Origin: Desulfurococcales archaeon
GTDB taxonomy: Archaea > Thermoproteota > Thermoprotei_A > Sulfolobales > WAQK01
Assembly (NCBI GenBank): GCA_027083135.1
Contig: JALWQH010000029.1
Coordinates: 1-54,869, forward strand
Direction of reading: 5' to 3'
Length of the DNA: 54,869 nucleotides
In this document: positions 14,222-30,990 of the stretch, piece after piece
Position numbering within the stretch: position 1 is the stretch's first letter
Layout: every line of letters starts with the position of its first letter
The notes under the pieces: model-generated
What the model saw: the letters and a program-made list of their open reading frames with translations, nothing else
Databases searched by the model: none
Told to the model about the DNA's origin: nothing
Position numbers and translations under genes: made by a program

Positions 14222-15316
14222 ATGGCGACTCTCCAGGTAAGAAACCTGGTTAAGAGGTTTGGGGAGACCATAGCTGTCAACAAGGTTTCATTCGATGTTC
14301 ACGATGGGGAGTTCATGGTTCTCCTAGGCCCTTCAGGCTCGGGTAAAACCACAACTCTACGATGCATAGCTGGGCTGGAGATGCCTGATGAGGGGGAAAT
14401 ATATCTTGATGGAGAGCTGATAAACTATGTTCCACCAAAGGATAGGGATATGGCCATGGTTTTCCAGAGCTATGCCTTGTATCCCCATATGACCGTCTAC
14501 GATAACATAGCATTCCCCCTCAAGCTTAGGAAGCTGCCTAAAAGCGAGATCGACTCCAGGGTGAAGGAGGTTGCAGAGATGCTTAGGATATCCCACCTCC
14601 TCGGCAGGAAGCCCCACCAGCTGAGTGGAGGGGAGCAGCAGAGAGTGGCGCTTGCAAGAGCCATAGTCAGGAAGCCCAGAGTATTCCTCATGGATGAGCC
14701 TTTGAGTAATCTTGATGCTAAGCTTAGGGTTTATATGAGGGCTGAGCTCAAGAAGCTGCAGAAGGAGCTGGGAGTCACAACCATATACGTAACACACGAC
14801 CAAGTAGAAGCAATGACAATGGCAGACAGGGTGATAGTGCTTAATAAGGGGATAATACAGCAGCTTGGAACACCCTACGAGCTCTACCATAAGCCCCAAA
14901 ACCTGTTCGTAGCAGGCTTCGTAGGCAGCCCTCCCATGAACTTCTTCGAAGGAGAACTTGTAGAAGAGGATGGCAGGATACTGTTCAAGACATCTGAGTT
15001 CACATTAGAGTTACCCTATGAGGCAGGTAGAATAGCGTTAAGGAAAGCTTCAGGAAGCATAGTCATACTAGGCGTCAGACCCGAGCACATATACGTGGCT
15101 GAGGAGAAGGGGCCTAGAAGCATAGAGGCAACAGTATTTGTAGTGGAGCCTCTGGGCAGCGAGACCATACTCGACTTCAAGATAGGCGACAAGATATACA
15201 AGTTGAGACATGAGGGGGAACTAGACTTCAAGCCAGGGGACAAAATACTGGTAACATATGATCCAGACAGGATATATCTATTCGATAAGAAGACGGGGAA
15301 AGCCCTACTATATTAA
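14222..15316 (+). CDS. Sugar ABC importer ATPase (MalK/UgpC type)
   Basis: This cytoplasmic ATP-binding subunit of a CUT1-type carbohydrate importer is 364 residues long, normal for the family. Walker A is GPSGSGKTT (about residue 38), the Q-loop is VFQSYALYPHM, and the signature is LSGGEQQR (about 135). Walker B is VFLMDEPLSNLD and the switch His is in VTHDQVEAMTMADR. A C-terminal regulatory TOBE-type domain (from about residue 235) includes LGVRPEHIY. The genes for binding protein and both permeases follow on the same strand. Compared with many bacterial operons the ATPase is first, and the 133-base gap to the binding protein has its own promoter. Confidence 0.93.
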   Translation: MATLQVRNLVKRFGETIAVNKVSFDVHDGEFMVLLGPSGSGKTTTLRCIAGLEMPDEGEIYLDGELINYVPPKDRDMAMVFQSYALYPHMTVYDNIAFPLKLRKLPKSEIDSRVKEVAEMLRISHLLGRKPHQLSGGEQQRVALARAIVRKPRVFLMDEPLSNLDAKLRVYMRAELKKLQKELGVTTIYVTHDQVEAMTMADRVIVLNKGIIQQLGTPYELYHKPQNLFVAGFVGSPPMNFFEGELVEEDGRILFKTSEFTLELPYEAGRIALRKASGSIVILGVRPEHIYVAEEKGPRSIEATVFVVEPLGSETILDFKIGDKIYKLRHEGELDFKPGDKILVTYDPDRIYLFDKKTGKALLY

Positions 15317-15390
15317 ACAAATAAGATGCATGTAAAACATGAAGCATCCATGGATCAATGATACAACCCTAATGTAATTGTTTAGTCTAC

Positions 15391-15419
15391 CCATTATTAA
15401 AAAATTTAACCTATAATGG
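15391..15419 (+). promoter_or_regulatory. Binding-protein promoter with inverted repeat around the TATA box
   Basis: The arms CCATTAT (15391-15397) and ATAATGG (15413-15419) are exact reverse complements. The 15 bases between them hold the A/T-rich TATA-like run TAAAAAATTTAA. The predicted transcript start is near 15430, some 20 bases before the ATG at 15450, with GAGG in the leader. An inverted repeat that brackets a TATA box is a natural place for a repressor to block TBP. This is inference. Confidence 0.45.
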
Positions 15420-15449
15420 TGGTTACAGTCCTTCAGAGGTATTCCTACC

Positions 15450-17036
15450 ATGACCTCCGAATCCGAGAAGGTTTCGAGGAGGGATTTTCTGAAATACAGT
15501 ATAACAGCCATTGCTGGACTCATAGTTGGCGGGGCTGCAGGCTACTATCTTAAACCCTCAGGCAAGAAAGTTACAACCGTGACGCAGCCTGCTAAGACCA
15601 TAACACAGACTATTACATCTACAACCACTGTCAGCGGGGCTGGGAAGAAGATAAAAATATCAGTTGCCTGCGACTCAGGTCACAACTTCCTTCCATGGAG
15701 AGACCCTCAGGAGGCTCCTCAGGGAGGCCATTTCGGCCAGAACCAGGGGCCCAAGATCGAGAATGCTCTTGGAATAGAGCTGGAGTACATTCAGTACAGT
15801 CCTTCGAACGAGTATTCATTGATTATGGCCGACCTGACATCTAAGACAGGCAAATACAACATTATAACATATTTCCCCACGTATAATGGAGATATAATGG
15901 GTGGAGGATGGGTCGTTGACCTAACGCCATTCATACAGAAGTATGAGGTTAATCTTGAGATAGTGCCACCCGTTTACAGATACCTGTACTCAGGGTGGGG
16001 AGGAAAGATCTACGCGCTCCCATATGACGGCGACTTCCACGCCCTGTACTATAGGAAAGACATATTCTCAAAGCCTGAAATTAGGAAAAAGTTCAAGGAT
16101 AAGTATGGTTTTGACCTAGCGCCCCCTGAGACCTATGACCAGTACTTGAAGATAGCTGAGTTCTTCACCGGGTGGGATTGGGACGGAGATGGTGAGGAGG
16201 AGTATGGCACCGTTGAGGACTTCAAGGATCTGACGTGGGGCCTCCTATTCGACAGACTGGGCTCCCTTGGAGAAGTCATATTCGACGAGGAGATGAATCC
16301 AAGGATAAACAGCGACAAGGCTGTCAAGGCTCTCACAGACCTTGTTAAAATAGTGCAGTACATGCCTGAAGGAGCATTGGAGTTTGGGGCCCTCCAGGTA
16401 TTCGACTCCATGACGAAGGGCATAACAGCCATGACTCTCACATGGCCTGACGTAGGCCCTAGGGCTGGAAGCGGCCAGTTCCCAGTCAAGGGAGACCAGG
16501 TTGGAACAGCACTAGTGCCAGGATACGTTGTTAACGGAACCCTGATAAGGAGGAGCTGGACAGGTGTTGGAAGAGTCATGGCTATATCAAAGCTGACACC
16601 CAAGGAGCTCTGGGAACCTGCTTTCAGAGTAATAAAATGGATGTACGATACCTCACCTATATGGGTTCCCTCAGGCCTAAACGGAGAGGACCCGTTCGCT
16701 GATACGCAGACAATGCCTGCTGCATTATACTACTGGAAGAAGGCCAATCCTGCGTGGAGCGAGGCAGGCATACTGGATTACCTAAAGGCGGCTAGAGATA
16801 ACTACCAGCACGGATACCCTGACCTATACATACCCGGTGCCTCAGAGTACCTGGATGTATTGTCAAGAGAGATAATGCTGGCTGCGAAGGGTGAAAAGAA
16901 GCCTAAGGATGCCCTGGACACCGTTGCTGAGGAGTGGGTGAAAATAACTAAGAACCTAGGAGCATCAAAGATGAAGTCCATATGGAAGCAGCAAATAGTG
17001 CAGTACAAGCTGGCTGGAATATGGCCTGGAGGCTAA
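15450..17036 (+). CDS. Tat-exported extracellular sugar-binding protein of the ABC importer
   Basis: This 528-residue substrate-binding protein is of the family-1 extracellular solute-binding (maltose-binding-like) type. The N-terminus has a twin-arginine signal (SRRDFLK, residues 9-15) followed by a hydrophobic segment (about 18-37), so it is probably exported folded by Tat. A Thr-rich stalk (about 40-62) keeps it away from the membrane. The mature part has WVVDLTPFI and KIYALPYDGD, common in sugar-binding proteins. It precedes the two permease genes. The ligand cannot be read from sequence, but the surrounding catabolic genes suggest a 6-deoxyhexose or an oligosaccharide containing one. Confidence 0.88.
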   Translation: MTSESEKVSRRDFLKYSITAIAGLIVGGAAGYYLKPSGKKVTTVTQPAKTITQTITSTTTVSGAGKKIKISVACDSGHNFLPWRDPQEAPQGGHFGQNQGPKIENALGIELEYIQYSPSNEYSLIMADLTSKTGKYNIITYFPTYNGDIMGGGWVVDLTPFIQKYEVNLEIVPPVYRYLYSGWGGKIYALPYDGDFHALYYRKDIFSKPEIRKKFKDKYGFDLAPPETYDQYLKIAEFFTGWDWDGDGEEEYGTVEDFKDLTWGLLFDRLGSLGEVIFDEEMNPRINSDKAVKALTDLVKIVQYMPEGALEFGALQVFDSMTKGITAMTLTWPDVGPRAGSGQFPVKGDQVGTALVPGYVVNGTLIRRSWTGVGRVMAISKLTPKELWEPAFRVIKWMYDTSPIWVPSGLNGEDPFADTQTMPAALYYWKKANPAWSEAGILDYLKAARDNYQHGYPDLYIPGASEYLDVLSREIMLAAKGEKKPKDALDTVAEEWVKITKNLGASKMKSIWKQQIVQYKLAGIWPGG

Positions 17037-17050
17037 AACATACCTCTAAC

Positions 17051-17060
17051 ATAGTTTTTT
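17051..17060 (+). terminator. T-run after the binding-protein gene, possible partial terminator
   Basis: Six consecutive T residues (17055-17060) lie 20 bases after the binding-protein stop. Oligo-T tracts stop archaeal RNA polymerase, and partial termination here would give more binding protein than permease. There is no hairpin, and the effect is inferred. Confidence 0.3.
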
Positions 17061-17113
17061 AACCATCACTCCATGCATCAGTACACTGAGGCTTAATAAA
17101 TTGAGGTAGGAGC

Positions 17114-18028
17114 ATGCCCAGGATCCGTAAGAAGAAAAACTATACGAGGAAATACGTGCTGATTCTGCTTCTACCAGGCCTCATATTGCTAGTAGCAGTA
17201 GTTATATTTCCATTTCTCTATACACTATGGCTGAGCTTTCTCCGATGGAATCTTAGGTTCTCCTGGGCTAAGCCTCACTTCATAGGACTGGAGAACTATA
17301 AGAATGCAATATTATCTGATCCAAGATTCTACAACTCACTTGAAAAGACGTTCTATCTGATGGCGGGGGCTGTTCCAATAGAGCTGCTGTTAGGCCTGGG
17401 CTTGGCACTCTTGTTTCACACAGGGTTTCCGGGGAAACGCATAACGATGCCCTTCTTCCTCATACCACTGGCGTTATCAGGAGCCGTGGTGGGCCTAATA
17501 TGGGGCTTAATATTCGTCCTAACCTATGGGCCGCTAGACTATATATTCCAGGTAACAGGCATATGGCGCTTCGTGTTCGGAGGCAGGGTGGATTTACTCA
17601 TATCGCATCCTATGGGATGTATAATAACCGCCGATATATGGCAGTGGACTCCCTTCTTCTTCATAATACTTCTAGCAGCATTATCATCCGTGCCTAAGGA
17701 TCTAATGGAGGCTGCAATGATGGATGGAGCCTCCTCTACACAGGCCTTCAGATACATAGCCCTCCCCATGCTTAAGCCTGCAATAGCAGTAGCCCTCATA
17801 ATAAGAATGATAGATGTCTTCAAGACCTTTGGAGTACCCTTCGTCATGACTAAAGGCGGGCCTGGATACGCTTCAGAGGTTGTCTCACTCTACATTTATA
17901 ATGAGGCTCTCCAATACCTCGACATCGCCTATGCTGCAACACTGTCCGTGATAGTAATAGTCATAATAATAGTGTTCCTTAACGCCTTCATGAAGGCCTT
18001 TAGATTCAAGTTCACTGGAGGCGGATAG
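17114..18028 (+). CDS. Sugar ABC importer permease 1 (MalF/UgpA type)
   Basis: This 304-residue inner-membrane permease of the CUT1 family has about six transmembrane helices, the first at residues 13-35. The coupling (EAA) loop reads EAAMMDGASSTQAFRYIALP at about residues 195-214, where it meets the ATPase Q-loop. A ribosome site GAGGTAGGAG lies just before the ATG. It stands between the binding protein and the second permease, and should pair with the latter to form the heterodimeric channel. Confidence 0.92.
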   Translation: MPRIRKKKNYTRKYVLILLLPGLILLVAVVIFPFLYTLWLSFLRWNLRFSWAKPHFIGLENYKNAILSDPRFYNSLEKTFYLMAGAVPIELLLGLGLALLFHTGFPGKRITMPFFLIPLALSGAVVGLIWGLIFVLTYGPLDYIFQVTGIWRFVFGGRVDLLISHPMGCIITADIWQWTPFFFIILLAALSSVPKDLMEAAMMDGASSTQAFRYIALPMLKPAIAVALIIRMIDVFKTFGVPFVMTKGGPGYASEVVSLYIYNEALQYLDIAYAATLSVIVIVIIIVFLNAFMKAFRFKFTGGG

Positions 18029-18030
18029 CA

Positions 18031-18879
18031 TTGAGGAGGAAAGCTAAGCCCACCTATGGTGGAAGCCTGGCCTTTAAGATAGGTAAATACTTGTTCCTTA
18101 TAGTAGCCTTCGTGTTCTTCGCCTTCCCGCTGTACTGGATGGTGATAACGGCATTCAAGCCTGAACAGGAATGGACAGCGTTCCCACCCCTCTTCTTCCC
18201 AGCTCCCCCAACCCTGAAGAACTTCTATGAAGGCTTATTCCTGATGCATGGTCTGAAGGGAATAATGGATAGCGCTATAATAGCCACAGGCAATATGGCG
18301 CTAACGCTTAGCCTAGGCATGCTTGCAGGCTATGCTTTCTCTAGATTCAGGCTTGGGGAGAACCTGGCCTTCTTCATTCTCTCCCAGAGATTCGCTCCTC
18401 CAGCAGCCTTCGCTGTAGCCTTCTTCATCCTCTTCGATAAGTTAGGCCTGCTTGACACGTATATTGCAATAATACTGGCTCACACTACATTCAACCTCCC
18501 CTTCGCAGTGTGGCTTATGAAGACGTATTTCGATGGTGTTCCAAGAGCCTTAGATGAGGCTGCAATGATGGATGGGTGTTCCCCTCTAGGAGCCTTCTTC
18601 AGGGTGGTGCTGCCTATCTCTACCCCCGGGGTAATCGCCACCGGTGCACTGCTATTCATGTTCAGCTGGAACGAGTTCCTCCTAGCATTATTCCTCAGCA
18701 GAACAGCGGTCACACCCTTCGTGGTCCTAATACCCAAGTTCTATGGAGGCCACGACATACTGTATGGAGTAGTATCAGCCGTCGCCTTCCTGGCAAGCAT
18801 TCCACCCATAGTCATCATAACACTACTACACAAATACCTAGTTAGAGGCCTGACACTGGGATACGTTAAGGGAGTCTGA
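18031..18879 (+). CDS. Sugar ABC importer permease 2 (MalG/UgpE type)
   Basis: The second permease subunit has 282 residues and about six transmembrane helices. The coupling loop is DEAAMMDGCSPLGAFFRVVLP (about residues 171-191) and the C-terminus is LVRGLTLGYVKGV, both usual for MalG-type proteins. It starts at TTG 18031, two bases after the stop of permease 1, so translation is coupled. It is convergent with the isomerase gene, with 35 bases between the stops. A short T-run (18908-18912) could end the transcript. Confidence 0.92.
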   Translation: MRRKAKPTYGGSLAFKIGKYLFLIVAFVFFAFPLYWMVITAFKPEQEWTAFPPLFFPAPPTLKNFYEGLFLMHGLKGIMDSAIIATGNMALTLSLGMLAGYAFSRFRLGENLAFFILSQRFAPPAAFAVAFFILFDKLGLLDTYIAIILAHTTFNLPFAVWLMKTYFDGVPRALDEAAMMDGCSPLGAFFRVVLPISTPGVIATGALLFMFSWNEFLLALFLSRTAVTPFVVLIPKFYGGHDILYGVVSAVAFLASIPPIVIITLLHKYLVRGLTLGYVKGV

Positions 18880-18914: not shown

Positions 18915-20411
18915 TCAGCCCAGCTGCTCCCAGAGCGGCTCCAGAAACCTCTCCTTATCCTCCCCCAATACTATGGGTTTTATTCCAGCTATCTCGCAGA
19001 ACCTTACAAGCTCCTCGACCCTGTCTCCAGGCACGCCGTGTATATGGTTGGCTGGGAACACGTTGATGAATTCATCGTAGCTTGCCTTGAACTTCACATA
19101 CATGTGTGGCCAGGTTGGATTAGTCTGCTCCTTTAGGTGTTTCTTCTCATCTTCAGGCAGGTCCAGTGACTCTCCTCTCACAATAACCATGTATGGTTTA
19201 TCATCCCTTAACCCCAGTCTGGCGAAAGTCATCTCCCCTGGAGCAGCATCGAATTCAACTGAGGCCCCGCCTGTCGGGAAGTACATCTCTATAGCTGGCC
19301 ATAATGTTATCTTCTTGAAATTCTCCCTTGGATCAAAGCTTCTGGAGGCATACCAGCTTGCATGATTGCCTGAGTTGGCCAGGATCCATATATCCTTCTC
19401 AGGCACGTATAGCCTGACATCAGCGAATAATACTGGCAGCCCGCCGCTCACGTATTTCAGTATCTGCATGGTGATCGCTCCCTGGGCATCAGCCTCGGTG
19501 GCGCATACGAAGGGCTCCTTAGGCCCGTTCCAGTCGTATGGATCATTCATAAGCATCTCAGCCACGTCTGTTATTATCACATGCTCTGTTAGATCCCTCT
19601 GTCCCTTAAGGCCGCAGAAGTCGAATCCCCACTCCTCGCATACCTTCCTCATAGCCAGGTATAATTTGAGCTGGGTTTTCAGCTTCTCAGGGGTCAGCAT
19701 CCTGCCATCGTACTTCAACCTGTCTCCGAGGAGCTCCTCAAACCATTTAAGCCCCTTCTCAACTTCTTTTTCATCAACTTTCTCCATCTCCCTGACAAGC
19801 CAGAGCTGATCAACCTGGTATGTCGTGATGCCGAAGTATTTCTGGAAGGGTACTAGATGGAAGTACCCTGTCTCCATCCCCATGGAGTGCCCTCCAAACA
19901 TGCCGTACGCCTGGCCCTTCAGCGAGGCGTAGGCTTCAGCCGCCCTTATCCACCTGGCTATACGGTCCTGGATCCCGGGATCGTCTAGATCTCCAATAAT
20001 CCTATGCGTCCTCAAGCCCGCCTGCCTGAGAGCCCCATCAGTGGCTAGGAGGCCGACATTACCTGGATACAATCCCTCATTATTGGAAACATTGAGTATA
20101 GGCTTATCCTTACCAACCTTGTTTACAAGAGGCCACACGAGATATGGGTAGTCCCAGATATAGTATAATATCACCAGTATGCCTGTATTACGGCTTGCAA
20201 GATACTCTCCAACCTCCTTTGAATCCCTTATCGATGAGATTACCTTGGGAGCGGTTATGACGCTGGGCTTAGAGCCATCCTGGTATACTACTTTCTCCTC
20301 GATGATTTTCTTCAGCTTCTCCATCTGCTCCATGCATTTTCCTTCCAGCCTCTCCATAACGCTTCTCCGCTCGTCTCCCAGCATAGCTATACCTATGTTA
20401 GATAACTTCAT
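18915..20411 (-). CDS. L-fucose isomerase family protein (6-deoxyhexose/aldose isomerase)
   Basis: The 498-residue product resembles the L-fucose/L-arabinose isomerase family (COG2407), which converts an aldose into a ketose with Mn2+. The metal ligands expected in this fold are visible: Glu306 in CATEADAQG, Asp331 in VLFADVR and His456 or His458 in ANHIHGVPGD. The N-terminal Rossmann-like domain includes ILVILYYIWDYP. It starts at ATG 20411, with AGGTG 8 bases upstream. It is divergent from the aldolase-AOR-kinase operon and shares its promoter region. The neighbouring kinase is of rhamnulokinase type, so the substrate may be L-fucose, L-rhamnose or a relative; the sequence alone does not decide. 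Confidence 0.82.
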   Translation of the reverse strand: MKLSNIGIAMLGDERRSVMERLEGKCMEQMEKLKKIIEEKVVYQDGSKPSVITAPKVISSIRDSKEVGEYLASRNTGILVILYYIWDYPYLVWPLVNKVGKDKPILNVSNNEGLYPGNVGLLATDGALRQAGLRTHRIIGDLDDPGIQDRIARWIRAAEAYASLKGQAYGMFGGHSMGMETGYFHLVPFQKYFGITTYQVDQLWLVREMEKVDEKEVEKGLKWFEELLGDRLKYDGRMLTPEKLKTQLKLYLAMRKVCEEWGFDFCGLKGQRDLTEHVIITDVAEMLMNDPYDWNGPKEPFVCATEADAQGAITMQILKYVSGGLPVLFADVRLYVPEKDIWILANSGNHASWYASRSFDPRENFKKITLWPAIEMYFPTGGASVEFDAAPGEMTFARLGLRDDKPYMVIVRGESLDLPEDEKKHLKEQTNPTWPHMYVKFKASYDEFINVFPANHIHGVPGDRVEELVRFCEIAGIKPIVLGEDKERFLEPLWEQLG

Positions 20412-20504
20412 GTCCTGACACCTGGGAATATTTCTCCATCATTATATCAATGAGACGCTGGGTTAAAGCCTTAATCATGGCTTAAGTCAGACTGTAGGAA
20501 CATG

Positions 20505-20511
20505 TTTAAAT
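20505..20511 (+). promoter_or_regulatory. TATA element of the aldolase-AOR-kinase operon
   Basis: TTTAAAT predicts a transcript start near 20534. That places the ATG at 20502 outside the mRNA and supports the ATG at 20547, which has GGGGA 8 bases before it. The divergent isomerase promoter lies 30-60 bases to the left. Confidence 0.55.
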
Positions 20512-20546
20512 CCCGTATTCATTTCAACTTACTGGGGATTCATACC

Positions 20547-21212
20547 ATGTGCGCGGAGACATTCTCACTAGTGTCGGAGGATGAGCTTAAGGAGGAGATC
20601 TGCAGGGTTATGAGAGCCCTGTATGAGAGGGGCCTCATAACAGCTCTTGGAGGAAACGTGAGTGCCAGGGTTCCAGGAGCCAAGGAGTTCTGGATAACTC
20701 CGAGCGGTGTTTTTAAGGGGGCTGTGGAGCCCGATGATCTCGTGAAGCTTGACCTCGATGGAAACATTGTTGAAGGTATTCTCAGGCCATCCATAGAGAG
20801 GCTGATGCATGCAGCCATATATAGGGTTAGGCCCGACGTGAATGCTGTTGTGCATGCTCATAACCCATACACCCTAGGCCTAGCCTTAGCGGGAGTCGAG
20901 CTTAAACCCGTCTCCGATGAAGCCGTAATGGTTTTGAGGAGGGTGGAGATAGTTCCCTTCGCATTCCCAGGCACGGATAAGCTGGCGAACCTTGTTGCAA
21001 AGTACGCGGCTAAGGGGGCTAGAGCACTGGTCCTCCAGAACCACGGCGTGGTTGCTATGGGGGCAAACCTGCTTGAAGCAGAGGCCCTCGTGGAGACTAT
21101 GGAGGAGGTCGCCATAGCACAGTATGTAGCCATGTCTCTCGGCAAGGAGCCCCGCACAATCCCCGAGAAGGACGTTGAACTCTACATGAAGCTATACCAT
21201 ATAAAGGAGTAA
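20547..21212 (+). CDS. fucA: Class II aldolase, L-fuculose/L-rhamnulose-1-phosphate aldolase type
   Basis: This zinc-dependent class II aldolase is about 221 residues long and splits a 6-deoxyketose 1-phosphate into DHAP and L-lactaldehyde. The phosphate-binding loop GGNVSAR is near residue 38 and TPSGV near 54. The catalytic Glu is in RPSIERLMHAAIY, two zinc His are in VVHAHNPYT, and the third zinc ligand is in QNHGVV. The start is ATG 20547, because the promoter lies between it and an upstream in-frame ATG. The AOR gene begins 3 bases after the stop. Context (isomerase, kinase, AOR) fits a phosphorylating deoxyhexose pathway. It is closer to FucA than to ribulose-phosphate epimerase relatives. 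Confidence 0.87.
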   Translation: MCAETFSLVSEDELKEEICRVMRALYERGLITALGGNVSARVPGAKEFWITPSGVFKGAVEPDDLVKLDLDGNIVEGILRPSIERLMHAAIYRVRPDVNAVVHAHNPYTLGLALAGVELKPVSDEAVMVLRRVEIVPFAFPGTDKLANLVAKYAAKGARALVLQNHGVVAMGANLLEAEALVETMEEVAIAQYVAMSLGKEPRTIPEKDVELYMKLYHIKE

Positions 21213-21215
21213 GAC

Positions 21216-23090
21216 ATGAGGGGAGCAGGGCTGACGGAATGGTACGGCTACATAGGCAGGATCCTGTACGTCGATCTAACCAGGGAGTCAATTGAGGCCA
21301 GGGAGCTTAGCGAGGAGGATGCAGACCTCTTCGTGGGGGGGATAGGCCTAGCCACAAAGATAGTTGTCGAGGAGACCGACCCACACGTGGATCCCTATAG
21401 TCCTGAAAACACCCTCGTATTCATGACGGGCCCCCTAACAGGGACCCTTGTCCCATGTACAGGCAGATACGTTGTTGCCGCCAAATCCCCCCTAACCCTG
21501 GCGTGGGGAGAGGCTCATGCCTCAGGATTCATGGGGACGGAGATCAAGAAGGCAGGGTTTGATGGAATAGTGTTTAAGGGGAAGGCAAGCAAGCCTGTCT
21601 ACCTATACGTGCATGACGGTGAAGCCGAGATAAGGAGCGCCGAGCATCTATGGGGTCTCGACATCTATGAGACCGATGCTGCATTGAAAAAAGAGCTTGG
21701 AGAAAACGTGAGGGTTGCAACCATAGGGCTGGCTGGCGAGAGGCTTGTACGCTACGCCCTCATAGCGTCAGACATCCTTCCAGACGGGCCTAGGATGGCT
21801 GGGAGAACAGGTATGGGGGCAGTCATGGGATCTAAGAACCTGAAAGCCCTCGCTGTCAGAGGGGCTGGAAGCATAAGGGTTAAGGATCCCAAGAGGATGA
21901 GGAGCATTCTCAACAGGATACTTCCCCTAATACTATCATCACCCACCATACAGATATACGCGGCTTCAGGCACTCCTGGAGAGGTTGAGGAGTTCTACGA
22001 GTATGGAGACATGCCTATCAAGAACTTCACTAAAGGGGTCTGGGAAGGCATAAAGAACCTGACGGCAGATGCGCTTAAAAAATACGTTAAAGGGCATAGG
22101 GCTTGCTGGGCATGCCCCATACACTGCTGGAAGTACATAGAGCTGAACGGCGAGGTTAAGGGTAGATCCCCCGAGTACGAGACCCTGGCCTCCCTGGGCT
22201 CAATGCTCCTAATAGATGATACTGAGGCGATAATAAGGGCGAACCAGCTCTGCAACAAGTATGGAATAGACACTATTTCAACAGGCAACACTATAGCCTG
22301 GGCTATAGAGTCGTATGAGAAAGGCCTCCTAACAAAGGAGGATACAGGTGGATTAGAACTTAGATGGGGTGACAGCGGGCTTCTATTAAAGCTTATAGAA
22401 ATGATAGGTAGGAGGGAGGGGTTCGGTAGGCTCCTAGGCGAGGGATGCAGGCTGGCGTCAAAGAGGATTGGAAGAGGAACCGAGAAATACTGCATGCATG
22501 TCAAGGGGCTTGAAATGCCCATGCATGATCCAAGGGCCTTTAAGGGAATGGGCCTCCAATACGCTACTAGTAATAGGGGTGCCTGCCACCTCCAAGGCTA
22601 CGTGTTCAGAATAGAGCAGGGGCAGAGATCATATGATCTCGGAATATACGACAGGTATGATAGGTTTGCAACCAAGGGTAAGGGATGGGTTGTAGGGGTG
22701 AGGGAGCTATGGTACGCTATACTGGAGTCCCTCGTAATATGCAAGTTCATGGAGATACCTCCAGCACACATAGCAGGCCTATTCACCCTGGTGACGGGTA
22801 GGAGGAAGACCGTTAAGGATCTCCTGGAGGATGCTAGGAGAATATACGATCTGCAGAGAATGTTCAACGTTGCCAACGGGATATCCAGGAAGGATGACAC
22901 GCTGCCTGAAAGGTTTCTAAAGGAGCCTCTCAAAGAAGGAGAGGCTAAGGGCCAGGTAGTAGAGCTCGACGAAATGCTTGACGAGTACTACGAGTACATG
23001 GGCTGGGATGAGAACGGCATACCTAGGAAAGAGGAGCTTGAACGGCTGGGCATATGGAAGCTGGCTGAAAAACTATACCCTAAGAAATAG
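21216..23090 (+). CDS. Aldehyde ferredoxin oxidoreductase, candidate lactaldehyde-oxidising enzyme
   Basis: This 624-residue tungsten-pterin enzyme of the AOR family has the usual start GYIGRILYVDLTRE followed by FVGGIGLATKIV. The pterin-binding segments SPLTLAWGEAHASG and GRTGMGAVMGSKNLKA are present. The cluster ligands are CWACPIHC (Cys297, 300, 304), with the fourth cysteine in SLVICKFMEIPP about 215 residues on. It sits between the aldolase (3-base gap) and the kinase (15-base gap), so the likely in vivo substrate is the L-lactaldehyde made by the aldolase, giving L-lactate and reduced ferredoxin. That role is inferred from position. Unlike the AOR at 10.3-12.1 kb it has no ferredoxin subunit gene beside it. 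Confidence 0.9.
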   Translation: MRGAGLTEWYGYIGRILYVDLTRESIEARELSEEDADLFVGGIGLATKIVVEETDPHVDPYSPENTLVFMTGPLTGTLVPCTGRYVVAAKSPLTLAWGEAHASGFMGTEIKKAGFDGIVFKGKASKPVYLYVHDGEAEIRSAEHLWGLDIYETDAALKKELGENVRVATIGLAGERLVRYALIASDILPDGPRMAGRTGMGAVMGSKNLKALAVRGAGSIRVKDPKRMRSILNRILPLILSSPTIQIYAASGTPGEVEEFYEYGDMPIKNFTKGVWEGIKNLTADALKKYVKGHRACWACPIHCWKYIELNGEVKGRSPEYETLASLGSMLLIDDTEAIIRANQLCNKYGIDTISTGNTIAWAIESYEKGLLTKEDTGGLELRWGDSGLLLKLIEMIGRREGFGRLLGEGCRLASKRIGRGTEKYCMHVKGLEMPMHDPRAFKGMGLQYATSNRGACHLQGYVFRIEQGQRSYDLGIYDRYDRFATKGKGWVVGVRELWYAILESLVICKFMEIPPAHIAGLFTLVTGRRKTVKDLLEDARRIYDLQRMFNVANGISRKDDTLPERFLKEPLKEGEAKGQVVELDEMLDEYYEYMGWDENGIPRKEELERLGIWKLAEKLYPKK

Positions 23091-23105
23091 TCCTGGGGAG
23101 GATGC

Positions 23106-24596
23106 GTGGAGAACCCTGTCCTCCTAGCCTTCGACCTCGGAGCCAGTAATGGCAGGGCTATGATAGGCGAGCTCAACTTAAAGGAGGGGGAGGTGAGGGT
23201 TGAGGAGCTGTACAGGTTCCCCAACTCACCTGTCCGCGTCGGAGGACACCTCTACTGGGATGTTCTAAGGCTGTGGAGCGAGGTTAAGAAGGGGCTGAGA
23301 CTCGCGTACAGGAGGTATGGAGAGAGGCTTGTAAGCGTGGGGGTGGATACCTGGGGAGTTGACTTCGCCCTCATAGACAGGGATGGGGAGCTGCTTGGAA
23401 ACCCCCATACCTACAGGGATCCAAGGACAAGGGGGCTGATGAGGGAGGTTTTAAGCATCATACCTAGAGAAGAGATCTATAGGAGAACAGGCATACAGTT
23501 CTTAGAGATAAACACATTGTACCAGCTCTACTCCCTAGCCAAGAAGAAGTCACCGCAACTCATGCATGCAGCCAGCTTCCTCATGATCCCTGACCTCTTC
23601 AACTACTGGCTCTCAGGAGCAGTAGCTGCAGAGTACACCGAGGCAACGACCACCCAGTTCCTCGACCCTAGGGATGGGTCATGGTGCCTAGACCTGCTGG
23701 AGAAGCTCGGCGTACCAACCCACATATTCCCCAGAGTGATAAGGCCTGCCACAAGGCTTGGAGAACTCCTCCCAAGCCTGGCCGAGGAGCTTGAGATTAG
23801 GGGAGATGTGGCTGTTGTGGCTCCAGCCACCCATGATACAGCCTCAGCCATAGCTGCAGCCCCGATAACAGGGGATTCAGGCTACGTGAGCTCGGGTACA
23901 TGGAGCCTGGTGGGAGTAGAGCTGGATAAACCCCTCATCAATGAGGAGGCCTTGAAATACAACTTCACCAATGAGGGCGGAGCATTCAACACCATAACAT
24001 TCCTCAAGGATATTCAGGGAATGTGGTTTGTCCAGGAGATAAGGAGAATTCTCGCGGAGAGGGGGGAGGAGCACAGCTACGAGGAGCTTACAAGAATGGC
24101 TGCAGAGGCGGAGGGATTCAAAGCATTCATAGATCCCGATGACCCTAGATTCATAGCTCCCACCAACATGATCGAGGAGATACTCAGGTATCTTGAGGAG
24201 ACAGGGCAGGAGAAGCCAAGCAGTATTGGAGGGCTTGTGAGAATAGTGTTGGAGAGCCTGGCATTGAAGTATAGGCTGGTCTTCGAGCAGGCCTCAAAGC
24301 TCATGGGCAGGAGGATTAGGAGGATAAGCATCGTGGGCGGCGGGTCAAGGAACTGGCTGTTAAACCAGCTTACAGCCGACTTCACAGGCCTCCCCGTAAC
24401 AGCGGGGCCTGAGGAGGCTACGTCCATAGGCAACGTGCTCCTACAGGCTGCGGGCCTCGGAATGATAGGCTCCCTCAACGAGCTTAGGGAAATAGTGAGA
24501 AACTCGTATAAGATTAGGAGCTATGAGCCTAGGCATACGCAGAGACATGAGGATGCATACGCCTCCTACCTTAAACTGCTGGAACAGGAGAAGTGA
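23106..24596 (+). CDS. rhaB: FGGY-family kinase, rhamnulokinase type
   Basis: This 496-residue sugar kinase of the FGGY family should phosphorylate a ketose (rhamnulose or fuculose) at O1 with ATP. FDLGASNGRAMIGE near residue 9 is the phosphate-1 loop. VGVDTWGVDFALIDRDG and NPHTYRDPRT are rhamnulokinase-like. The catalytic Asp lies in ATHDTASAIAAAP, with SSGTWSLVG after it, and the C-terminal adenosine motif is IVGGGSRNWLLNQLTAD. It starts at GTG 23106 with GGGGAGG just before. It is the third gene of the aldolase-AOR-kinase operon. The enzyme type hints at rhamnose more than fucose, but the isomerase looks fucose-like, so the sugar is open. Confidence 0.88.
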   Translation: MENPVLLAFDLGASNGRAMIGELNLKEGEVRVEELYRFPNSPVRVGGHLYWDVLRLWSEVKKGLRLAYRRYGERLVSVGVDTWGVDFALIDRDGELLGNPHTYRDPRTRGLMREVLSIIPREEIYRRTGIQFLEINTLYQLYSLAKKKSPQLMHAASFLMIPDLFNYWLSGAVAAEYTEATTTQFLDPRDGSWCLDLLEKLGVPTHIFPRVIRPATRLGELLPSLAEELEIRGDVAVVAPATHDTASAIAAAPITGDSGYVSSGTWSLVGVELDKPLINEEALKYNFTNEGGAFNTITFLKDIQGMWFVQEIRRILAERGEEHSYEELTRMAAEAEGFKAFIDPDDPRFIAPTNMIEEILRYLEETGQEKPSSIGGLVRIVLESLALKYRLVFEQASKLMGRRIRRISIVGGGSRNWLLNQLTADFTGLPVTAGPEEATSIGNVLLQAAGLGMIGSLNELREIVRNSYKIRSYEPRHTQRHEDAYASYLKLLEQEK

Positions 24597-24683: not shown

Positions 24684-25814
24684 ATGGGTTCACCAAGCCT
24701 TCACAGAGATATAATTCGAGGCCTCAGGTTCTCCATGGAGGCTGAAGGCCTCGACACGCTCGTCATAATGGGGAACGAGAACATACTGTATGCTGCAGGA
24801 GCGAATATGACCACTGCTCTCAGAGCATTCACACCGATCTCAGCCCTAATAGTCACGGGGGATGGGAGCATACTAGTATTGCCTGGAGACGAGTATACCA
24901 GGGTTATGGAGGAGGCTCCCAGAGGAGTATTCGAGGCTAAAACCTATAATCCGCTGGAGACAAGCCTCCCCGAACACCTGCCGGAGATCCTGTTAAAACT
25001 GGGTTCAAGGAGGATAGGAGTGGACTCAGCCTATACTCCTCACTCTGTGGTTAAGGAGTTGGAGGCTAGGACAGGCGCGGAGATCCATGATGCTACAAGC
25101 CTCATCCTGGCTGAAAGGATGGTGAAGAGGGAGGAGGAGATAAGGTGTATGGAGAAGGCGGCAGACATACTTGTCAGGAGCATAGAGAAAGCCCTGGAAT
25201 ACTTGAAGCCAGGGATGAGTGAAAGGGAGATTGCAGCGGAGATAGAGTACTGGTCTAGGAGGATGGGTGCATCCTACACCCCCATGATAAACCTAGTTGC
25301 ATCGGGGGAGAGGCTTATCCACCCCCACCCACACTCAACCGACCGGAGGATAAGGCCCGGCGACCTAGTCATGCTTGATGTCGCCACAACCTACGCCTAC
25401 TATTCCTCAGATATGACGCGTTTCGCCTCCATAGGCCCCCTGAGACAAGAGGACAGGGAGAAGTTCGAGTTCATAGAAGAGGTTATTGGAACGCTAATAG
25501 ACGCCGCAGTTGAGGGAAATACTGTTAGGGACATGTGGGTTAAAGTGGTGGAGGAGTATCGGAGGCACGGCTACTCGGAGCACCTCAACCATGTTGTAGG
25601 GAGAGGCATAGGAATAGAACTCGTAGAACCCCCCATAATAGACGCCAGAGCAGGGGATACGGAGCTACGTAGAAACATGACCCTCGCCTTCAACCCCTCA
25701 CTACACATAGTTGGCCAGGGGGGATGGAGGCTTGAGGACGTCGTAGTAGTAGGTGCTAGGAGGGCAAGAATCCTGACGAGAATGCCGTGGAGAGTCGTGG
25801 AGAAGAAGGGCTGA
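24684..25814 (+). CDS. M24 (pita-bread fold) protein with altered metal site
   Basis: The 376-residue product has the two-domain layout of Xaa-Pro dipeptidase/creatinase proteins: an N-terminal creatinase-like domain (1-140) and a C-terminal pita-bread domain. Two metal ligands are in place, Asp232 and Asp243 (DVATTYAYYSSD), and the last Glu (351, RLEDVVV) is present. The metal His of GHGIG is Arg307 here (GRGIG), and the fourth ligand, usually Glu in EP, is Asn337 (FNPS). His303 is kept. A normal two-metal peptidase is therefore doubtful. It may be a metal-independent creatinase-like enzyme or a non-catalytic protein. Its stop is 3 bases before the next kinase start, which links it to sugar metabolism. 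Confidence 0.8.
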   Translation: MGSPSLHRDIIRGLRFSMEAEGLDTLVIMGNENILYAAGANMTTALRAFTPISALIVTGDGSILVLPGDEYTRVMEEAPRGVFEAKTYNPLETSLPEHLPEILLKLGSRRIGVDSAYTPHSVVKELEARTGAEIHDATSLILAERMVKREEEIRCMEKAADILVRSIEKALEYLKPGMSEREIAAEIEYWSRRMGASYTPMINLVASGERLIHPHPHSTDRRIRPGDLVMLDVATTYAYYSSDMTRFASIGPLRQEDREKFEFIEEVIGTLIDAAVEGNTVRDMWVKVVEEYRRHGYSEHLNHVVGRGIGIELVEPPIIDARAGDTELRRNMTLAFNPSLHIVGQGGWRLEDVVVVGARRARILTRMPWRVVEKKG

Positions 25815-25817
25815 ACC

Positions 25818-27284
25818 ATGAGCAGAGCCGAAGACACGGTTTACCTGGGAATAGATCTCGGGACAAGCGGCGTTAGAGTGGAGGCTTACACCGAGGATGG
25901 CGAGCAGCTACATTTAGGTAGATCCCCCATATCCTCGCAGGATACAGAGGCCTGGATCAGGGCTCTAAGGGAAAGCATGAAGGGAGCAGGATGGAAGCAC
26001 TGGTCTGTGAGGGCAGCGGTGGACAGTACTTCTGGAAGCTTCATAATATGCGGGTCACACGGAGAACCTCTACACCCGCCAGTCATGTATTATGAGAAGG
26101 CTGAGAGAGGCTACCGGAAGGCTGCGAGGCTATCCTCAGCGAGAATGCTTGAGTCAAAAGGACTCAGGCTATCCCCCACATCCCCCCTCCCCAAGATCCT
26201 GGAACTCATGGAGGAGGAGCCCAGCATATTCTCTAAGGCCCGCTGGATACTGCCGCCTGCAACCTGGCTGCTCTATAGGCTTAGATTCAGGGAGGGTGAG
26301 GAGTGGAGGGATCTAAGCGTAGATTACAGCAATGCATTGAAGTTCGGCCTCGACATAACCCCCCCTAAGCCAAGGTGGTTTGAAGCATTGTTCGAGGAGG
26401 CTGGAGTACCCCTCAGCCTCCTCCCCACAGTAGCATCGCCTGGAGATCCTGTAGGACCCGCTGAAAGCAGGCTTGCCGAGAGCCTGGGGCTTAGGGGGGC
26501 AGAGCTATATCACGGCATGACCGACGGCAACGCGGCTGCCCTTGCAGGAGGAGCTTTAAGTGAGGGAGACATGGTAATCTATTCTGGAAGCACAACTGTA
26601 CCTAAATACGTGTCACCCTACATGAAGCCTCACCCAGCAATATATTATCACAGGCATCCCCTAGGAGGCTATCTTGCAGGCGCCGCTACATCTGCTACTG
26701 GAGGCATGATGACATGGCTTGCCGAGAAAGTGTTCGGAATACCCGTAGACGAGGCCTTCAGCCTCATGGAGGAGGCAGGAGATCCCGGCGGATTAGTATT
26801 CTTCCCTCCGGGGGCTAGGAGCCCCTTCAACGACCCTCTTCTAGGAGCATCACTGCTGGGATTATGGCCCCTCAGAGAGGAGAGAAGACGTGTGATAGGC
26901 AGAATAATGCTCGCATCAGCCCTTGGAATAACATTCCTCGAGTACAGCTATATCAGGCTGTTCGAACAGCTGTTCGGGAAGAGGGTGGAGGAGGTTAAGC
27001 TGACGGGTGGGGGGACCCGCAGCCCCCTCTGGAACAAGCTGAGAGCCTCCATATATGAGCGTAGAGTCAAGGTGTATGGAGACCAGGTAGCCGTGGGAAC
27101 AGTGATCCCAGTCCTAATCAGAGTAGGAAAGTATAGGAGTATCAGGGAGGTGGAGGAGAGATTCCTCAAAGTAAGGGAGACCCTGAAGCCTGACCCCAGC
27201 ATCACCGATAAGTATAGGTTTCTGAGAGACAGATATATGGATGCATGGGGGAAGCTAAGGGAAGCATACCACAGTCTCCAATAA
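25818..27284 (+). CDS. FGGY-family carbohydrate kinase (xylulokinase-like), substrate unknown
   Basis: This is a second FGGY kinase, 488 residues. The N-terminal phosphate loop is YLGIDLGTSGVRVE. The catalytic Asp is in MTDGNAAALAGGA (about residue 235), followed by SGSTTVPKYV, and the C-terminal motif is KLTGGGTRSPLWNKL. It is closer to the xylulokinase/ribulokinase branch than to the rhamnulokinase at 23.1 kb. The AAVDSTSGSFI segment stands where xylulokinases have a substrate loop, so the sugar may be unusual. It starts 3 bases after the M24-fold gene and is probably translated from the same mRNA. Substrate not determined. Confidence 0.85.
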   Translation: MSRAEDTVYLGIDLGTSGVRVEAYTEDGEQLHLGRSPISSQDTEAWIRALRESMKGAGWKHWSVRAAVDSTSGSFIICGSHGEPLHPPVMYYEKAERGYRKAARLSSARMLESKGLRLSPTSPLPKILELMEEEPSIFSKARWILPPATWLLYRLRFREGEEWRDLSVDYSNALKFGLDITPPKPRWFEALFEEAGVPLSLLPTVASPGDPVGPAESRLAESLGLRGAELYHGMTDGNAAALAGGALSEGDMVIYSGSTTVPKYVSPYMKPHPAIYYHRHPLGGYLAGAATSATGGMMTWLAEKVFGIPVDEAFSLMEEAGDPGGLVFFPPGARSPFNDPLLGASLLGLWPLREERRRVIGRIMLASALGITFLEYSYIRLFEQLFGKRVEEVKLTGGGTRSPLWNKLRASIYERRVKVYGDQVAVGTVIPVLIRVGKYRSIREVEERFLKVRETLKPDPSITDKYRFLRDRYMDAWGKLREAYHSLQ

Positions 27285-28374: not shown

Positions 28375-29058
28375 ATGAAGATCCCCCTATACGTTGAGAT
28401 GAATGGCCGCAGGATCCTCGTGGTGGGCGGAGGCAGCGTGGGGGCTAGGAGGGCCTTAAAATTCCTAGAGGCAGGTGCCAGGGTAACAGTGGTTAGCCTC
28501 GAGTTCCATGAGAAGCTGGTTGAAGAGGCTTCATCCAACCCTAGGCTGAAGCTGGTCAGGGCAGATGCCTCAGATGAGGAGATCCTGGAGAAAATGATCG
28601 GTGGGAGCGACATAGTAGTTGTGGCCACAGATAACCCCATTATAAACAAGCATACCGTAGAGATCGCTAGGAGGCTTGGAAGACTGGTTAACAATGCTAC
28701 TGATGCTGGGAACACTGATATCATAGTGCCCTTCGAGGTGGAAGCCTATGGCCTCAGAGTAGCCGTGACCAGTGAGGGGCGTTCAGGCATAGCTGCACGG
28801 ACGGCTGCCACACGTATCAAACAGATGCTTGAGGCCGACAGGGAGCTTAGAACACTGTTCACAGCCATGGAGAAGGCTAAGAAATACTTGAAGAAACGTA
28901 TCTCTAAAGCTAAGGAGCGGATACCGGTGTACTTTGAAATAGAGGCTGACCCTGAGTTCAAGCGCCATGTGGCTAGACTTGACTCCGAGTCTGCTTGGAG
29001 GAGGGCTAAGGAGATAATCGACCGAGAAGCCTTGAAGCATCTCCGAGAATCCAGCTAA
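28375..29058 (+). CDS. Precorrin-2 dehydrogenase (Met8p/CysG N-terminal type)
   Basis: The 227-residue enzyme oxidises precorrin-2 to sirohydrochlorin with NAD+. It has the family's opening strand IPLYVEMNGRRILVVGGGSVGARRA, where GGGSVG is the NAD-binding loop. VVVATDNPIINKHTVEIARR and NNATDAGNTDIIVPF (the position of the catalytic Asp) follow. The helical C-terminus begins at SEGRSGIAARTAATRIKQ. Some members also insert iron; that cannot be told here. It follows the AbrB/PhoU regulator by 13 bases. Its last 53 bases overlap the end of the opposite-strand chelatase-like gene. Confidence 0.88.
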   Translation: MKIPLYVEMNGRRILVVGGGSVGARRALKFLEAGARVTVVSLEFHEKLVEEASSNPRLKLVRADASDEEILEKMIGGSDIVVVATDNPIINKHTVEIARRLGRLVNNATDAGNTDIIVPFEVEAYGLRVAVTSEGRSGIAARTAATRIKQMLEADRELRTLFTAMEKAKKYLKKRISKAKERIPVYFEIEADPEFKRHVARLDSESAWRRAKEIIDREALKHLRESS

Positions 29059-29596
29059 GCACATTCATGTAGCCTTCCTCCAGCAGTGGAGGCATGCATA
29101 TGGAAGCCCCCCTACACGCCTCTCTCCACACACGCCCCCTCGAGAAGGCTAGCGGGACTACTGGAATACCCCTAGCACTCTTAGAGCCTGGGCCGTAGGA
29201 TGCCTTCACACCCCTCTCCTCCAGCATTTCTGCAAGCCTCATCATCCTATACTCCTGCTCCTCCCAGTACCTCTCAGACCTATGAGCCGAAAGCATAATC
29301 CTCCTATACTTCATTCTAGCACACCAAGAACCAATCACCTCGGCAAGAACCTCGAGGGGCAGAATACCCCTCCACAAAGCACCCCTCAGCTCAACCAGTG
29401 GTAGGAGCTCCTCCCTAACATGGCTTGCCTCAAATACGAATAACCCGTAGACCAGGTCCCCCCTCCCAATCTCCCCGCCTAGGCTTGCCTGATCCCCGTG
29501 GAGAGCTTCTACACCCAGCCTCTCCGAAACCTCTCCTACAAGCCTCTCAACCATGCTGGGCACAGAGTACTTATGATGGGCTACAATGACCCTCAA
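29006..29596 (-). CDS. Divergent CbiX/SirB-like protein, candidate sirohydrochlorin chelatase
   Basis: This protein of about 196 residues is not an obvious family member by motif. Its layout matches two degenerate CbiX half-domains in tandem. In the first half, strand one ends in VIVAHHK (His7/His8) and the second strand ends in FVFEASHVREEL (His59), where CbiX has its two catalytic His. The second half repeats the pattern with LSAHRSERYW (His105) and VVPLAFSRGRVWRE, where the second His is lost. This is as in long CbiX/SirB proteins, whose N-terminal half is active. Position inside the siroheme/heme locus supports iron insertion. The TTG at 29596 is chosen because the promoter (29646-29665) lies upstream of it. 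A GTG at 29719 would add 41 residues. Confidence 0.6.
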   Translation of the reverse strand: MRVIVAHHKYSVPSMVERLVGEVSERLGVEALHGDQASLGGEIGRGDLVYGLFVFEASHVREELLPLVELRGALWRGILPLEVLAEVIGSWCARMKYRRIMLSAHRSERYWEEQEYRMMRLAEMLEERGVKASYGPGSKSARGIPVVPLAFSRGRVWREACRGASICMPPLLEEGYMNVLSWILGDASRLLGRLSP

Positions 29597-29645
29597 AACA
29601 TTATGCCCCAGCCCCCTCCCGGAGACAGAGGGTAATGAAGGCAGA

Positions 29646-29692
29646 GTATATACAGTATATATATGTGGAGAATAGTATATAGTGGTAAATAT
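29646..29692. promoter_or_regulatory. Bidirectional A/T-rich promoter of hemA and the chelatase-like gene
   Basis: Repeated TATA-like runs (GTATATACAGTATATATATG at 29646-29665, GTATATAG at 29675 and GGTAAATAT at 29684) fill this stretch. Leftward initiation from the first run would start near 29624. Rightward initiation from the last ones would start near 29704-29714, leaving 25-35 bases to hemA ATG 29740. Confidence 0.55.
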
Positions 29693-29739
29693 CTCTGCTT
29701 TTAGCTCATCCTCCTCCACTCCTCCCTGAGGCTGTATGA

Positions 29740-30990
29740 ATGCTTAGGGGAGAGCCTGAATCCCTCTACCGCGCAGTGGTGATCAGCCATAAGACATGTG
29801 GGATGAGGGGGGTTGAAAGGGCTTCAATGCTTCCACTCCCCCAGCTCTACGGCATGCTTTGGAATAGGCTTGGAGGACCAGTGATCCTGGCTACCTGTAA
29901 TAGGGTTGAAGTCTACTGGCATGGCGGGGACGAGGAGGCTGTAGAGGATGTTAGGAGGATGTTTGATGCCTTGGCAGATGTGGGTGGATGCATGGCTGTG
30001 CTCAGAGGCTTAGAGGCGGCCAGACATTTATTCAGAGTCGCAGCAGGCCTCGACTCAATGATGATCGGTGAGACGGAGATCCTTGGACAGGTATCAGAGG
30101 CTCTTAGAGAGGCTCTTAGGCATGGTGAGCCGAACCCCTACGTGGAGTTCCTCTTCAATAGGGCTGTGCATGTGGGTAGGAGGGCTAGGAGGGAGACAGG
30201 GATATCTAAGGGTGCTATAAGTATACCCCTAGCATCCGTAAGAGTTGCTGAGAGGATTCTAGGAGGCCTGAAGGATAAGAGGGTGCTGATAATAGGTGCG
30301 GGGACAGCGGCCTCCATAATAGCCTCAGAGGCGGCTTCAAGGAAGCCTACACGTATACTCATACTTAACAGAACGGTGAAGAAGGCTAGAAGACTGGCTG
30401 AGAAGCTGGGGGCAGAGTGGGGAGGCCTGTCAATGCTCCCCCAAGTACTAGGAGAATTCAACGTAGTATTCGTAGCTGTCTCAGGAGCCCCTACCCTTCT
30501 GCCTGCAAGCCTTCTCCAGGAGGCTGAGGCGAGGCCCCTCATAGTGGATATCTCCACGCCTCCAGCCGCGGAGCACGTGGAAGGTGCAAGGATAATCACC
30601 CTGGACTCGCTGCGCAGGGAGGCTGAGGAGAATGCTGCTAGGAGGAGGGCTGAAGCCCTGAAGGCTGAAGCCCTGGTAGAGGAGGAGGTGAAGCTCTTCT
30701 TAAGGCTTGTTAGAAGGATGGAGGCTGACAGGGTGGTTTCAGCCATAACCATGAAGGCCGAGATAATAAGGAGGAAGGAGGTTGAAAGAGCCTTCAGGGC
30801 CCTGAAGGCCAGAGGCCTCTACACGGGGGACGGGGCCTCAGGGATCATAGAGGCTATGAGCAGATCAATAGCCAGGAAGATCCTTCAACCCGTCTACGAG
30901 GCTGCCCGCAGGGCAGCGGAGGAGGGAGACTACTCCAGGCTCTCCCTAATCCTAGAGTTATTCGGAGGTGATAGGCATGAGCTTCCCTAA
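29740..30990 (+). CDS. hemA: Glutamyl-tRNA reductase
   Basis: This is the first committed enzyme of tetrapyrrole synthesis, reducing glutamyl-tRNA(Glu) to glutamate-1-semialdehyde with NADPH. The 416 residues match the family. The catalytic Cys is in LATCNRVEVYW, the substrate domain contains GLDSMMIGETEILGQV, and KGAISIPLASVRVAE follows. The NADPH-binding loop is LIIGAGTAAS, and a long helical dimerisation arm fills the last 110 residues. It heads a run of nine tightly packed genes that ends at 38966. Its last 14 bases overlap the start of hemB. Confidence 0.95.
   Translation: MLRGEPESLYRAVVISHKTCGMRGVERASMLPLPQLYGMLWNRLGGPVILATCNRVEVYWHGGDEEAVEDVRRMFDALADVGGCMAVLRGLEAARHLFRVAAGLDSMMIGETEILGQVSEALREALRHGEPNPYVEFLFNRAVHVGRRARRETGISKGAISIPLASVRVAERILGGLKDKRVLIIGAGTAASIIASEAASRKPTRILILNRTVKKARRLAEKLGAEWGGLSMLPQVLGEFNVVFVAVSGAPTLLPASLLQEAEARPLIVDISTPPAAEHVEGARIITLDSLRREAEENAARRRAEALKAEALVEEEVKLFLRLVRRMEADRVVSAITMKAEIIRRKEVERAFRALKARGLYTGDGASGIIEAMSRSIARKILQPVYEAARRAAEEGDYSRLSLILELFGGDRHELP

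Follow-up and report, generated by a model that had tools for sequence, protein, structure and literature searches.

The window is the whole 54,869-nucleotide stretch of Desulfurococcales DNA analysed here, and the genes and features with which we are concerned are these:

14222-18879, + strand: sugar ABC transporter, comprising an ATPase, a solute-binding protein and two permeases (family and NCBIfam models)
18915-20411, - strand (divergent): L-fucose/D-arabinose isomerase-family protein, 498 aa (PF07881, PF07882, PF02952)
20412-20546: intergenic region common to the divergent isomerase and the aldolase, with TTTAAA at about 20505-20510
20547-21212, + strand: class II aldolase, FucA/RhaD-like (PF00596; the longest ORF runs from 20502)
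21216-23090, + strand: AOR of the AFOR/WOR family, large subunit alone, 624 aa, AFOR_N and AFOR_C full length
23106-24596, + strand: FGGY kinase of the rhamnulokinase/fuculokinase type, GTG start (TIGR02627, 482 bits)
25818-27284, + strand: second FGGY kinase, weakly XylB-like and far under cut-off (domain and NCBIfam models)

The gene order described in the sequence-only reading, in which aldolase, AOR and rhamnulokinase follow one another and a fucose-type isomerase is divergent from them, is confirmed by the open reading frames and the sequence. The gaps are 3 bases between aldolase and AOR and 15 bases between AOR and kinase, all three genes are on the + strand, GGAG-type ribosome-binding sites lie upstream of the AOR and of the kinase, and the isomerase carries three L-fucose isomerase domains. 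With the aldolase beginning at 20547, 135 bp separate its start from that of the isomerase, and we prefer this start to the ATG at 20502 because of the position of TTTAAA. The intergenic region that holds this motif is a putative promoter region shared by the two genes. The transporter, which adjoins the far side of the isomerase, is probably the uptake system of the operon; by NCBIfam its ATPase is UgpC-type, above cut-off, and its permeases are GlcT/GlcU-like, below cut-off, and in L038 the binding protein and both permeases likewise adjoin the isomerase, with their order kept. The second FGGY kinase is a possible accessory of the operon, as homologues of it (45-59% identical) directly follow RhaK in L039, L040 and L050.

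Other genes of the window may be mentioned in passing. Between the two FGGY kinases is an M24-family peptidase-like protein (24684-25814, +). A tetrapyrrole cluster starts at 28375-31993 (+) with genes that by eye are siroheme-synthase-like and glutamyl-tRNA-reductase-like, the next gene of the cluster being a delta-aminolevulinic acid dehydratase (Pfam). A second, distant AOR at 10349-12570 (-) adjoins a 140-aa 4Fe-4S protein, the two resembling a WorL and WorS of Class II; its homologue (57-58%) is found beside the aldolase-AOR/GlcD/Etf cluster in L151, L155 and L165.

How well do the sequences define the enzymes? The Pfam assignments are strong, with E=3e-51 for the aldolase (Aldolase_II, PF00596) and E=4e-77/7e-140 for AFOR_N/AFOR_C of the AOR. 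A ketose kinase of the RhaB/FucK type is present: the nearest NCBIfam model of the first kinase is rhamnulokinase TIGR02627, for which its score is just under the equivalog cut-off of 528, and its nearest solved structures are pneumococcal FucK 4c23 (364 bits) and E. coli RhaB 2cgj (325 bits). The aldolase scores at most 127 bits with NCBIfam models, the nearest of which have cut-offs of 250 or more, and its nearest solved relatives are fuculose-phosphate aldolases (4c24, 6btd), pneumococcal FucA being the nearest. The isomerase, at 153 bits against a cut-off of 775, is below any named equivalog and is nearest to the solved 3a9r (D-arabinose isomerase) and 1fui (FucI). Since isomerase and aldolase fall so far below equivalog cut-offs, family models do not settle the exact sugar, which could be L-fucose, L-rhamnose or D-arabinose.

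The residues expected for catalysis are in place. In the alignment, the aldolase's catalytic Glu and three metal-binding His, roles assigned from FucA, are invariant in 57/57 homologues compared. The AOR's C297, C300, C304 and C509 match C288, C291, C295 and C494 of P. furiosus AOR, and its E322 and H458 match E313 and H448; in the P. furiosus enzyme these belong to the [4Fe-4S] cluster and the W-site, respectively. There is no small Fe-S subunit gene beside the AOR, whose neighbours are the aldolase and the kinase. With its full-length domains, its cluster and W-site residues, and its lack of an adjoining small subunit gene, the AOR fits Class I of the AFOR/WOR family. Identity as GAPOR was considered and rejected (GAPOR_Arch, 53 bits against a cut-off of 1300).

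In bacteria, lactaldehyde is either oxidised by the NAD-dependent AldA or reduced by FucO. We think it probable that the present genes form a phosphorylative 6-deoxyhexose operon of the L-rhamnose/L-fucose type in which the AOR makes L-lactate and reduced ferredoxin rather than NADH. The sugar would be imported, isomerised to the 2-ketose and phosphorylated at C1, after which the class II aldolase would split the ketose-1-phosphate into DHAP and L-lactaldehyde. The tungsten-type AOR would then oxidise L-lactaldehyde to L-lactate while reducing ferredoxin, and so stand in for AldA or FucO. In the home genome the lactate might go on to pyruvate through LutB-type proteins, and in relatives through a lactate racemase and an LctBCD-like dehydrogenase with Etf. 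We infer the AOR substrate, ferredoxin as acceptor, tungsten and the direction of flux; many class II aldolases and AORs accept a wide range of substrates, which counts against this reading.

Is the AOR beside the aldolase by chance? There are seven AFOR_C matches in the home genome, including a fragment at the end of a contig, and none of its other AORs has such an aldolase beside it. AOR orthologues, 62-78% identical, occur at 14 public loci in Ignisphaera, Caldivirga, Desulfurococcales and other Thermoprotei, and at 14/14 the aldolase is directly upstream. In a class sample of 229 genomes, with orthologue thresholds of at least 71% identity for the aldolase and at least 62% for the AOR, the two share the same 10 genomes. 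They are adjacent in 10/10, where the sequence-only reading would have been undone by close relatives whose AOR was missing from beside the aldolase and scattered elsewhere. The recurrence in other archaea for which it proposed a search holds at the public loci, and it extends to a tight pair in 22 further genomes of a 398-genome phylum sample, with AOR identity down to about 55%. An arrangement that recurs across the phylum is not due to chance.

The AOR tree gives the same picture. Its 32 rows with 100% SH-aLRT support as one clade come from Caldivirga, Ignisphaera, Desulfurococcales and other Thermoproteota, about 15 genera in all. Scored from hit coordinates, the aldolase is immediately upstream in 32/32, and the clade keeps the cluster cysteines and W-site residues, one member ending before the last cysteine. 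Of the six AORs in the sister group, one is about 170 bases from its aldolase, two are parted from it by a single gene, and three have no linked aldolase. No adjoining aldolase was seen at the compared AORs outside the clade and its sister group, and the solved AORs 1aor, 9mqx, 9g7j and 8c0z branch elsewhere. From the aldolase side, all homologues at least 59% identical have an adjoining AOR; those at 58% or less are mostly without one and several are on long branches, which suggests that the aldolase may have changed function after separating from the AOR.

Some loci have features of their own. In one family (L158, L159 and L160) a 54-55% identical AOR is unlinked to the aldolase and is divergent from a block that by eye resembles archaeal shikimate biosynthesis. 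In L162 and L164 a gene that by eye resembles seryl-tRNA synthetase separates aldolase and AOR.

The pair is constant among the loci and the flanking genes vary. A rhamnulokinase adjoins it at seven loci and FGGY kinases do so at others, and further sugar-pathway neighbours are FucI-type or xylose-isomerase-like isomerases and sugar transporters; outside the closest relatives, no isomerase was recognised alongside most pairs. The order in Caldivirga is aldolase-AOR-rhamnulokinase-xylose-isomerase-like protein. Several loci add genes that might act on lactate. In L044 and L142 a single operon reads EtfB-EtfA-GlcD-LarA-aldolase-AOR, in L051 and L138 the order is aldolase-AOR-LarA, and in L151, L155 and L165 GlcD and EtfAB surround the pair. 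EtfBA-GlcD-LarA forms its own cluster away from the pair in L219, L221, L222 and L226, the L226 contig ending inside EtfA. LutB is found in L147 (aldolase-AOR-CCG-LutB) and in L050 and L170 (rhamnulokinase-second FGGY-aldolase-AOR-CCG-LutB).

Is lactate the product? The main argument for lactate over glycolate or acetate is the LarA racemase beside the pair, as a racemase fits a chiral product. The best solved match of LarA is the nickel lactate racemase 2yjg, and the LarA proteins, at 419-439 bits, fall short of the lactate-racemase cut-off of 460; malate racemases also occur among LarA homologues. The GlcD of L044 matches LctD of A. woodii best (7qh2_C, 291 bits against 214 for the next), and its EtfB scores 145-171 bits with bifurcating Etfs against at most 69 with canonical ones, so that by its closest relatives the L044 enzyme is of the LctBCD type. 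LarA is found in 23/30 genomes with the pair against 15/226 in the class sample, an enrichment that is phylogenetically clustered (p=5e-6 by genome, p=0.06 by genus). The genomes with the pair that lack LarA have a LUD/LutB gene in 7/7 cases. We reject LutB as proof of lactate, since LUD genes are present in 102/226 class genomes and the argument is a weak one.

The home genome presents a different inventory. A PF00171 search of this genome, which is 99.6% complete, found no AldA-type NAD lactaldehyde dehydrogenase; its single PF00171 protein (G000:C43) scores 828 bits against a cut-off of 780 for archaeal NADP-dependent glyceraldehyde-3-phosphate dehydrogenase and on that score is GAPN. With GAPN as the sole PF00171 protein, the AOR is the best candidate there for lactaldehyde oxidation. 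Among the 30 genomes with the pair, some of which are incomplete, 13 have no PF00171 match and five have weak or partial matches only, against matches in 14/14 control genomes. The home genome also has no LarA and no LctBCD-type confurcating lactate dehydrogenase, its only GlcD-type gene having no Etf alongside and sharing 30% identity with the LctD-like one. It carries a LutB-like protein, and with this and without LarA it likely uses another lactate route. Taken as a prediction from sequence, the oxidation of aldolase-released L-lactaldehyde to L-lactate by the AOR, as proposed in the sequence-only reading, draws support from the conserved pair, the LarA, LctBCD-like and LutB neighbours, and the GAPN-only home genome.

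What else might the pair do? The ketose phosphate could be ribulose-1-phosphate, with D-ribulose made from D-arabinose by the isomerase, or with nucleotides as the source; the aldolase would give DHAP and glycolaldehyde and the AOR would make glycolate for GlcD-type oxidation. A D-arabinose isomerase as the nearest solved structure of the isomerase is consistent with this, as is the demonstration that a haloarchaeal FucA homologue is a ribulose-1-phosphate aldolase (PMC9700705). The best family model of GlcD is glycolate-oxidase, with a score under its cut-off, and RuBisCO form III and a phosphoglycolate-phosphatase-like HAD protein just before the pair in two Ignisphaera genomes (L145 and L169) hint at C2 metabolism. 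Against it, a racemase such as the LarA found next to the pair would be superfluous for glycolate, which is achiral, the A. woodii lactate dehydrogenase is the closest match for GlcD and Etf, and the kinase is rhamnulokinase/fuculokinase-like, so we consider this variant unlikely. We give clearly less credence to salvage of 5-deoxyribose (or methylthioribose) 1-phosphate, in which 5-deoxyribulose-1-phosphate would yield DHAP and acetaldehyde and the AOR would make acetate. DrdA of B. thuringiensis (6btd), which ranks third among the aldolase's solved matches, does cleave 5-deoxyribulose-1-phosphate in that way (PMC6079011), acetaldehyde is oxidised by PfAOR (PMC13328260), and many pairs have no sugar kinase alongside. 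The route employs an enzyme of the methylthioribose-kinase or phosphorylase type and an MtnA-type isomerase (PMC6079011), none of which was recognised beside the pair; instead the window has FGGY kinases, a sugar isomerase and a sugar transporter, and several loci have lactate genes.

Three further explanations seem to us very improbable. One would have the AOR be a general aldehyde detoxifier that is in a sugar operon by happenstance: those Class I WORs that have been characterised, PfAOR among them, have broad specificity and for the most part a detoxifying role is ascribed to them (PMC13328260), but an aldolase stands beside every member of a clade that spans about 15 genera and beside no compared AOR outside it and its sister group. 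Least probable is the reverse direction, in which the AOR would reduce lactate to lactaldehyde with reduced ferredoxin and feed a synthetic aldolase. The aldol condensation is favoured thermodynamically (PMC6079011) and AORs given low-potential donors can reduce acids (PMC9295118); against this, the kinase and the uptake transporter imply breakdown, and relatives carry lactate-oxidising genes. These genes of the relatives, together with the operon's kinase, isomerase and transporter, point to catabolism and hence away from the third explanation, that the pair makes L-lactate for coenzyme F420. It was prompted by Methanocaldococcus jannaschii, whose fuculose-phosphate aldolase and lactaldehyde dehydrogenase were proposed to make L-lactate for F420 by the same two-step logic, and one of the best-scoring models for the aldolase is a methanogen FucA (123 bits against a cut-off of 250).

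Returning to L-lactaldehyde oxidation, how might the electrons be balanced? For relatives with LarA and an LctBCD-like enzyme we suggest, tentatively and as something short of our expectation, that the AOR and the lactate dehydrogenase form a ferredoxin-balanced module. The AOR would produce one two-electron-reduced ferredoxin from L-lactaldehyde, LarA would turn L-lactate into D-lactate, and the Etf-linked dehydrogenase would spend that ferredoxin and two NAD+ in making pyruvate. The sum would be lactaldehyde to pyruvate plus two NADH with a net ferredoxin change of zero. By the A. woodii stoichiometry, the ferredoxin needed per lactate oxidised by confurcation equals that made per lactaldehyde. 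We know of no described ferredoxin-balanced route from lactaldehyde to pyruvate of this kind, and should the confurcation link prove real, energy would be coupled in a new way. The electron-confurcating lactate dehydrogenase LctBCD of A. woodii (7qh2) is not known to be beside an AOR. It is like the Etf/GlcD-type enzyme that, with a lactate racemase, shares one operon with aldolase and AOR in a relative. In Fusobacterium an Ldh-linked Etf is canonical and not bifurcating (PMC12630350).

The proposed pathway has several known counterparts. The bacterial L-rhamnose/L-fucose route (RhaA/FucI, RhaB/FucK, RhaD/FucA, AldA or FucO) also proceeds by isomerase, kinase and class II aldolase to DHAP and lactaldehyde, but in the archaeal operon a ferredoxin-type AOR would replace the NAD enzymes at the aldehyde step, and the isomerase and aldolase are remote relatives of their bacterial counterparts. 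The present AOR has fold, domains, W-site and cluster residues and the single large subunit in common with P. furiosus AOR and its Class I kin (1aor, 9g7j), at about 40% identity, although it belongs to a separate clade fixed beside one aldolase; the known Class I WORs are assigned to detoxification or acid reduction, without a sugar operon role. P. furiosus GAPOR likewise replaces an NAD(P) dehydrogenase within a sugar pathway, but it is of another clade and its substrate is a phosphorylated C3 compound. The M. jannaschii system also turns lactaldehyde from an archaeal aldolase into lactate, though with an NAD(P)-type dehydrogenase and for anabolic F420 synthesis. In the haloarchaeal ribulose-1-phosphate pathway an archaeal FucA-family aldolase gives DHAP and a short aldehyde that is reduced with NADH (PMC9700705), whereas here a ferredoxin-linked oxidation is predicted, following an isomerase and an FGGY kinase.

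Every component comes from a known family, and provisionally it is the combination and the role that are new. The sequence-only reading knew of no standard description, and in the open-licence literature we too found none of an AOR in deoxyhexose catabolism or with lactaldehyde, rhamnose or fuculose aldolase. The main text of a 2026 WOR survey (PMC13328260) contains no aldolase, rhamn- or fuco-, and by its count a defined physiological role is known for some member of only 5/92 WOR clades. If the proposal is true, the present clade would gain such a role, deoxyhexose breakdown would be tied to ferredoxin instead of NAD, and the handling of lactaldehyde by thermophilic archaea without AldA-type dehydrogenases would be explained. 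The constant link of its members to a single aldolase makes the role of the clade directly testable, and Caldivirga homologues make bench tests practical.

Other genes recur near the aldolase. In one family (L149, L152, L154, L157 and L175) a BtuR/CobO ATP:corrinoid adenosyltransferase and a 136-153 aa protein are beside the aldolase whether or not the AOR is there. In L143, L144, L145, L168 and L169 a gene of 93-103 aa is divergent to the aldolase; the L046 copy is weakly MoaD/Urm1-like and may correspond to the WorX-type cofactor protein named in the WOR survey.
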